Of a DNA stretch of 64,000 bases, positions 62,963 to 64,000 are shown piece after piece. The stretch is from assembly GCA_022579005.1 (NCBI GenBank), contig MU401564.1:1-64000 (forward strand). Direction: 5' to 3'. Positions within the stretch are counted from its first letter, which is position 1. Every line of letters begins with the position of its first letter. Source of the stretch: Poronia punctata. Its lineage: Eukaryota; Ascomycota; Sordariomycetes; Xylariales; Xylariaceae. Below the pieces are notes generated by a model. The model had not been told where the DNA came from and ran no database searches. It saw nothing but the letters and a program-made list of their open reading frames with translations. Made by a program: the position numbers and the translations under genes.

Positions 62963-64000
62963 ATGGCTTTCCAACGAGGAGGTGGTAGAGGTGCGCCGAG
63001 AGGCGGTGGTGGTCGCGGTGGTTTTGGCGGAGGCCGCGGAGGTGGAGGTCGCGGTGGATTTGGTGACCGTGGTGGCCGAGGAGGTATAACCGCTCTTTCC
63101 AAGAGATTTCGCACAATTTGCTCGACGGAACTGACGACCCATAGGTGGCCGCGGTGGATTTGGTGACCGTGGTGGCCGTGGCGGCGGTGGACGAGGCGCC
63201 CCTCGAGGTTAGCTAATCCCGATCTTTGATATGGCAAATTCGACCAATTCAACTAACAAACCGCGACTAGGCCGTGGTGGTCCCAGAGGTGGCGGTGGCC
63301 GTGGTGGTGGTGCCCCGAGAGGTGGTGCAGGAGCCAAGGTAGTCGTTGAACCGGTATGTATACGAGATCCGTTACAATTCGCGGCATGATCTTGAACTGA
63401 CAGTTTCGAAATAGCATCGCCAGTGAGTTGCCGGCCCGGCGCTAGTAACGCCTACCACATCGAAACTTGGATTGCTAACATTTATATCAAGCGGTGGCAT
63501 CTTCGTATCTCGCGGTAAGTGGACCAATGCAACCCAATGGGCATACGACGCGTCTTAGGATAGAGACCAACTACTAGCCCAAGCGCGCAACTTTCTTGCT
63601 AACTTTTTAACTTAACAGGCAAGGAAGATCGTACGTGAAACCCCGAGGCTCTTGTTATTCCTCGAGAAGGCTTGTGACGAACAGTCTCTTATCATGAGCT
63701 GATGTCGACTTGTCTATCGGCATGCTTAAGAGAATGTCCTAACACTATTATCTAGATCTCCTCACCCGCTCTATAGCCCCTGGTGTTGAAGTTGGTATGT
63801 GCAAATCACCCCCTTTCTTTTCTTTCTTCCCTGGTTGCTAACATTGTCATAGTAAGTTGAATACATGCTCTCGAAGCGAAGCTCTTCGCCGTCGACATGG
63901 AGAATATCCTCGAGACGAACCGAATGTTAACGTATCATGCAAAAAGTACGGCGAGAAGCGAATCTCTGTGGAGGAACAAACAAAGGATGCCGAGGGTGCT
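62963..64000 (+). CDS. nop1: Fibrillarin (NOP1), 5' part, truncated by the window end
   Basis: Fibrillarin is the nucleolar 2'-O-methyltransferase of C/D-box snoRNPs. Exons: 62963-63083, 63145-63207, 63271-63353, 63415-63422 (8 nt), 63492-63514, 63619-63630 (12 nt), 63756-63793 and 63947 to the window end; this gives the first 134 residues of an expected 310-320. Residues 1 to about 90 are the Gly/Arg-rich GAR domain. Then come AKVVVEPHRHGGIFVSRGKE, DHLLTRSIAPGVEV and YGEKRISVEE, with exactly the residue spacing of yeast and human fibrillarin. The methyltransferase core lies beyond the window. Small exons and many introns are visible directly. The intron before 63947 is best explained as a stwintron (listed separately). 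Confidence 0.93.
63794..63946 (+). other. Probable stwintron (nested introns) in fibrillarin
   Basis: The inner intron 63795-63852 (GTATGT donor, GCTAAC branch, CATAG acceptor) splits the donor of an outer intron: G at 63794 plus TAAGT at 63853 form GTAAGT once the inner intron is removed. The outer intron then ends at AAAAAG, 63946. The result joins GTT to TAC and gives PGVEV-YGEKRI, the conserved spacing. A single intron from 63795 would shift the frame and destroy YGEKRISVE. The one in-frame single-intron alternative uses the weak donor GTTGGT at 63791 and loses the conserved Val. Confidence 0.75.

Follow-up and report, generated by a model that had tools for sequence, protein, structure and literature searches.

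Spliceosomal twin introns (stwintrons) are excised by two consecutive splicing reactions; their definition, the two-step scheme, the alternative [A2,3] route and conserved stwintrons are presented in PMC5639578. For the [D1,2] type, in which an internal intron is located between the first and the second base of the donor of an external intron, PMC9024468 provides a search model (hereafter model A), more than 1500 cases in Hypoxylaceae and validation by splicing intermediates, and PMC12403724 describes sister stwintrons and their missplicing in Xylariaceae and Hypoxylaceae. In this work, we analyzed intron 7 of the fibrillarin gene of Poronia punctata, and we hold with high confidence that it represents a [D1,2] stwintron belonging to the non-repeated ("uniquely occurring") class, which the ancestor of the core Xylariaceae probably already carried. 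It would thus be a new, non-repeated example of the known [D1,2] stwintrons, apparently conserved in position.

The uniquely occurring [D1,2] stwintrons of Hypoxylaceae (PMC9024468) share with the fibrillarin intron an inner intron placed directly after the first base of the outer donor. The fibrillarin intron also matches model A, likewise had no similar copy found in its genome and appears to occupy a position conserved across a clade. It differs from those cases in residing in a Xylaria-type fungus and in the fibrillarin gene, whereas the eight Hypoxylaceae fibrillarin models among the matches listed are undamaged at the corresponding junction. The [D2,3] stwintron of bioDA and the [D1,2] stwintron of lipS (PMC5639578) are also position-conserved and found in single conserved genes, although the genes are different and the bioDA intron is additionally of another split type. 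The [A2,3] route is closed for fibrillarin, because exon 8 starts with T, while a G is needed there according to PMC5639578.

The sister (propagating) [D1,2] stwintrons, as presented in PMC12403724, have the same architecture as the fibrillarin one and occur in the same taxonomic order. A sister or propagating origin was nevertheless rejected, since neither a similar copy nor NTIRE-10 elements were found. A DNA search of the genome, in which very common words were skipped, returned at E ≤ 10 only the fibrillarin stwintron itself, and none of the three published NTIRE-10 sequences checked (one 5' and two 3' elements) lies within positions 63794-63946. For the donor-linked 5' element GGTATGTATAAAAAC, the genome contains no exact site and nine one-mismatch sites (versus three for the backward pattern), none of them on a match of model A. 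It should be added that neither PMC9024468 nor PMC12403724 uses the word "fibrillarin" in its main text. No paper containing both "stwintron" and "fibrillarin" was found in a search of mainly open-access papers; when stwintrons were searched for together with misannotation, no further stwintron paper appeared among the 10 matches listed out of 233.

The analyzed window comprises the first 64000 bases of contig C111 (123672 bases), and the genome searches covered the 45-Mb assembly of 573 contigs. The whole fibrillarin gene spans positions 62963-65158 of the contig on the forward strand, and its 5' part (window positions 62963-64000), recognized by the spliced coding sequence (CDS), Pfam and a Nop1 match, is cut by the window end within exon 8. 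Splicing by eye gave a CDS of 978 nt (325 aa) in 16 exons separated by 15 introns. The product belongs to the Pfam Fibrillarin family (PF01269; E-value 1.2e-100, profile positions 1-226 of 227) and matches the Nop1 chain 5wlc_SC (3.7e-132). Fourteen of the 15 introns are of the plain GT-AG kind and intron 7 begins with GG; its AAG acceptor is seen, among the other 14, in intron 4 only. The gene also contains tiny exons of 8 nt (window positions 63415-63422), 12 nt (window positions 63619-63630) and 8 nt (C111 positions 64983-64990). The tRNA and Rfam scans across the window found nothing.

Exon 7 (63756-63793), delimited by the spliced CDS and the homolog alignment, ends in phase 0 with APGVEV, and its last codon is GTT for Val (63791-63793). 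Next comes G63794, assigned by sequence and by enumeration of splice models as the first base of the split outer donor, and then the internal U2-type intron of 58 nt (63795-63852; sequence and motif match), with its GTATGT donor, a GCTAAC branch-point element identified by motif match (63837-63842) and a TAG acceptor (63850-63852), in the layout GTATGT-36 nt-GCTAAC-7 nt-TAG. Directly behind it stands TAAGT (63853-63857), which supplies bases 2-6 of the outer donor (sequence and splice models). The outer intron of 95 nt (63794 plus 63853-63946; spliced CDS and splice models) includes a GTTAAC branch-point element, also found by motif match (63926-63931), and terminates with the AAG acceptor (63944-63946); the whole stwintron (63794-63946), delimited by the same evidence, is 153 nt long. 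Exon 8 (63947-64000 in the window, extending to 64033), supported by the spliced CDS and homologs, starts with the codon TAC at 63947 and encodes YGEKRISVEE. All of these features are on the forward strand. The external donor is therefore split after its first base by the internal U2 intron, and the donors, branch points and acceptors of both introns lie within the published distances, as the regular expression of model A matches at 63794.

Cutting out 63795-63852 brings G63794 to TAAGT and creates the outer donor GTAAGT, and once the other 95 nt are gone as well, GTT (Val) is followed in frame by TAC (Tyr), giving APGVEV-YGEKR. The initial annotation had proposed just this, i.e., that removal of the inner 58 bp produces a GTAAGT donor and that removal of the outer intron restores a conserved V-Y junction; the former was reproduced to the base, the latter gave APGVEVYGEKR, and each element that it had named (GTT, G, GTATGT, GCTAAC, TAAGT, GTTAAC, AAG, and TAC) was recovered where it had been placed. 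In the cell, the U2 spliceosome would remove the internal intron 63795-63852, G63794 and TAAGT would then form the outer donor GTAAGT, and a second reaction would remove the outer intron up to the AAG at 63946, joining GTT to TAC in frame. We infer this order of splicing in vivo; what was observed directly are the sequence elements, the frame, the conserved peptide and the way in which relatives' models are broken.

Splice models between exons 7 and 8 were enumerated with GT/GC-AG borders, allowing single introns of 40-250 nt and pairs of introns of 40-200 nt each with an exon between them. None of the 255 single-intron models (44 with an open frame) contained APGVEVYGEKR, and the peptide was intact in none of the 3632 two-intron models (724 open). 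Among 8991 nested models, four restored it; all four are of the [D1,2] type with the inner donor at 63795 and the outer G at 63794, and of their outer donors (GTAAGT, GTTGAA, GCGAAG, and GCTCTT) only GTAAGT is consensus. Removal of both introns thus restores the frame and the conserved protein, and the other tried models with consensus sites fail. The [D1,2] reading of the initial annotation is supported in that it is the only tried model with consensus sites that restores V-Y and in that many models of relatives fail at this very place.

Incomplete or alternative processing would be disruptive, as removal of the inner intron alone leads to a stop at codon 119 (..EVVS*), and one-step use of the distal sites 63795-63946 keeps the G and leads to a stop at codon 137. 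It could be proposed that the distal sites are the main splice pair and that the stwintron serves as an off-switch producing this frameshifted mRNA. For other [D1,2] stwintrons, such missplicing is described as happening occasionally or infrequently (PMC12403724 and PMC9024468), and the predicted RNA fold contains a pairing of the 5' GGUAUGU with an ACGUAUC close to the 3' end of intron 7. As the main route, however, the distal pair would abolish most of the fibrillarin, and the predicted fold of the whole intron 7 is no better than that of shuffled sequences (z 0.68; 150 of 200 shuffles fold at least as well); the probability of this explanation is in our opinion negligible.

Chance occurrence of the signals was also assessed. 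In the window, model A has two matches (63353 and 63794), compared with a mean of 0.27 and a maximum of 2 in 60 shuffled windows, and with a stricter version of the model the two window matches stand against none in the 60 shuffles. When the interior of intron 7 was dinucleotide-shuffled with both ends fixed, the strict inner branch point followed by YAG|TRAGT was recreated in one of 20000 shuffles and a loose version of the inner elements in 109 of the same 20000. These numbers bear on the view that 63794-63946 is a single non-canonical GG-AG intron, excised in one step with the inner signals unused. It would yield the same mature mRNA as the [D1,2] stwintron, but it leaves both the inner branch point with TAG|TAAGT (1/20000 shuffles) and the VVS-type models described below unexplained, and to our knowledge GG donors are not a standard class, which makes it hardly credible. 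Just as hard to credit is an assembly error, i.e., one extra G at 63794-63795 in what would truly be a plain GTATGT..AAG intron. If one G were missing, the frame would indeed be restored by a single intron; the inner acceptor/donor hybrid would then be a coincidence, though, and models of relatives, which were built on other assemblies, fail at this very junction (five of them, among the matches listed, encoding VVS). Moreover, eight other loci in the genome exhibit the same GGTRNGT..YAG|TRAG architecture and join recognizable domains in frame.

The other match of model A (window positions 63353-63491) covers introns 3 and 4 together with the 8-nt exon that they flank (CATCGCCA). Its parse as a [D1,2] stwintron stays in frame but drops HRH, partly encoded by the 8-nt exon, and because HRH is kept in most of the 120 aligned homologs (among the matches listed), this match was judged a decoy. 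Since model A also matches a decoy in the fibrillarin gene, the motif alone is no proof, and it is the coding evidence that separates the two.

For the comparison with relatives, 194 distinct homologous proteins were collected (the best 120 of 7324 and the best 120 of 729 matches, so that lower-ranked damaged models may be missed); the best homologs among the matches listed were Xylaria proteins, with 95-96% identity for the first seven. The matches listed comprised 23 proteins bearing the names Xylaria, Nemania, Ustulina or "Xylariaceae sp.", a further 22 belonging to other Xylariomycetidae, and the remaining 149. The 22 were eight Hypoxylaceae (five Hypoxylon, Daldinia, Jackrogersella, and Parahypoxylon), seven Amphisphaeriales, three Monosporascus, Microdochium, one unnamed Xylariales, Camillea, and Biscogniauxia. 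Affiliations were looked up in the NCBI taxonomy, which files Camillea and Biscogniauxia in Xylariaceae; Hypoxylon, Daldinia, Jackrogersella, and Xylaria were placed by their names.

The presence of a stwintron at the same position in orthologs was gauged by damage to these protein models (13 of the 23 among the matches listed), from which the relatives' introns were deduced. The V-Y junction was broken in 13/23 of the Xylaria/Nemania/Ustulina/"Xylariaceae sp." models and in 0/22 of the other Xylariomycetidae (Fisher test, 2e-5; matches listed); with Camillea and Biscogniauxia moved to Xylariaceae the listed matches gave 13/25 versus 0/20 (1e-4), and when they were counted by tree clade, 13/21 versus 0/24 (3e-6). 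Among the listed matches, the 23 consisted of ten intact models, four without Val (FL1777, Ustulina deusta, Nemania FL0916, and FL0043), five with VVS-type inserts, one with another insert, one that had lost YGEKR, and two truncated or skipped. The ten intact ones, eight of which (among the matches listed) fall inside the clade described below, could be correct models or could signify that the stwintron is absent there. As a control, the 12 other scored junctions (introns 3-15 without 7) were damaged in 0, 0, 0, 0, 2, 3, 3, 3, 4, 5, 5, and 6 of the 23 models, and in the 22 others intron 7 was damaged in none and the other junctions in 0-2 (matches listed in both cases). The damage elsewhere in the 23 listed models included the junctions of introns 3-6 (3-5/23) and of intron 9 (6/23).

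The character of the damage is informative. The EVVS found in the five broken models is what GTN-GTA-AGY would encode, i.e., an exposed outer donor with the inner intron gone, as read from proteins rather than codons. The insert of P0029 ends with INVSCEK-YGEK, at the place where the 3' end of the outer intron of the window gene reads VNVSCKK, and P0039 begins with MLTCICEK-YGEK. Two models of X. grammica, the intact P0002 and the VVS-type P0035, are identical except for a 24-residue insert and a 13-residue gap at exon 10, and their difference at intron 7 looks like one of annotation. The damage in relatives' models was probably caused by gene callers allowing plain GT-AG introns only.

The four Val-less models bear on a further explanation, named as an alternative in the initial annotation, according to which 63791-63946 is one ordinary intron with the donor GTTGGT and the mature protein lacks Val. 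Such an intron is in frame, and the four models of relatives (among the matches listed) display exactly this deletion. Nevertheless, Val is kept in all 22 other Xylariomycetidae and in all 149 remaining homologs, the latter reading V-[YF]-x-E-K (matches listed), and therefore its deletion in the four models is most likely a gene-caller artefact. Val is also present in the three best matches among distinct full-length sequences of known structure, which we take to be those of yeast, Chaetomium and human, as well as in FL0064 and FL0933, which form a supported clade of three (100/92) with the Val-less FL0043. The pattern GTRNGY fits 11 of the other 14 fibrillarin donors and not GTTGGT, a weak point given that three others also misfit. 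Finally, GTTGGT is absent from the 24 donors of the published model. The ordinary intron is accordingly disfavoured, and we regard it as very unlikely.

A tree was constructed for the protein part from NPF onward, with 46 rows. Besides the 23 named models, it included P0010 and the window gene as well as all of the 22 others except one Monosporascus row, which was too short. All 13 damaged rows and the window gene were placed in one clade of 23 rows with a support of 100/100, the rest of which was made up of P0010 and eight named rows with an intact junction. Just outside it branched FL0804 and FL0016, which are likewise intact. The row nearest to the window gene in this tree was AK1471, a VVS model. 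A first, quicker tree gave the same clade. In the tree from NPF onward, most forks inside this clade are weak, and the bootstrap did not settle.

The above-mentioned P0010 is a 240-aa open reading frame on a 1944-bp JGI contig. Its first residues, LLTSFLSAGIF, resemble the tail of an unspliced intron 4 (the corresponding intron end of the window gene reads LLTFISSGGI); from GIF on, its 232 residues align gap-free to the window fibrillarin (219 identical), V-Y included. P0010 could therefore be a transcript, a point to which we give little weight, as the contig is also long enough for genomic exons 5-16 (1667 bp in the window gene) with a spliced model.

The clade and the broken models together suggest that the ancestor of the core Xylariaceae probably already had the fibrillarin stwintron, with one origin. 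It is probably old and clade-wide and not recent and spreading. Both its presence in the relatives' DNA and the single ancestral origin are what we infer from protein models. This goes beyond the initial annotation, as the stwintron is probably shared by the core Xylariaceae and not an isolated case. A bolder version, in which it arose once at the base of this group and has been kept because obligate two-step splicing with a frameshifting missplice sets the fibrillarin dose, seems to us unlikely; if true, the stwintron would slow ribosome production by way of splicing. As two-step splicing in a universal nucleolar gene, extending over seemingly the whole clade, it may be a handy marker of stwintron age and loss rate. 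It also exemplifies a practical problem, with 13 of the 23 public fibrillarin models of Xylaria and close kin (matches listed) damaged at one junction, and stwintrons might be spotted without genomes by looking in protein databases for "VVS"-type inserts and deletions of one residue.

The search for relatives' genomic DNA covered viral contigs, where eight stretches matched a pattern and none came from a relative, and prokaryote genomes, where ten loci (eight titled as archaeal, two from bacterial MAGs) were found and none was useful for the intron position. Two loci, L054 and L055, are fibrillarin genes (75% and 59% identity in the best segment) on contigs titled as Verrucomicrobiaceae and Rickettsiales MAGs, and are probably eukaryote contamination.

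Other stwintron candidates were sought in the same genome. The pattern GGTRNGT-N{25,55}-RYTAAC-N{4,20}-YAGTRAGT had nine matches, versus one for the backward pattern. The eight non-fibrillarin ones (L009, L010, L011, L012, L013, L015, L016, and L017) can all be spliced as [D1,2] stwintrons joining recognizable coding sequence, namely that of a GH18 chitinase-like protein, PARP, NMD3, a short-chain dehydrogenase, saccharopine dehydrogenase, a class I tRNA synthetase (valyl-type by eye), an ALO-type oxidoreductase, and a WD40 protein. Pfam matches run across all eight junctions, six above and two (GH18 and WD40) below the gathering score; their outer acceptors were picked by eye to keep the frame, so that this constitutes support and not a blind test. 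For L009 and L012, the scan found no consensus outer branch point. The eight loci are probable further [D1,2] stwintrons, judging from their sequences, and together with the fibrillarin intron they bring the number of probable stwintrons in this genome to at least nine. A stricter pattern, with RCTAAC in both introns, gave no excess in the genome (two matches versus two in the backward control). A looser one gave 76 matches versus 13 backward and was not used as a stwintron count, many of its matches lying in GGTAGGT-rich repeats; some of them may be further stwintrons, e.g., those at C114:107675 and C21:29490.
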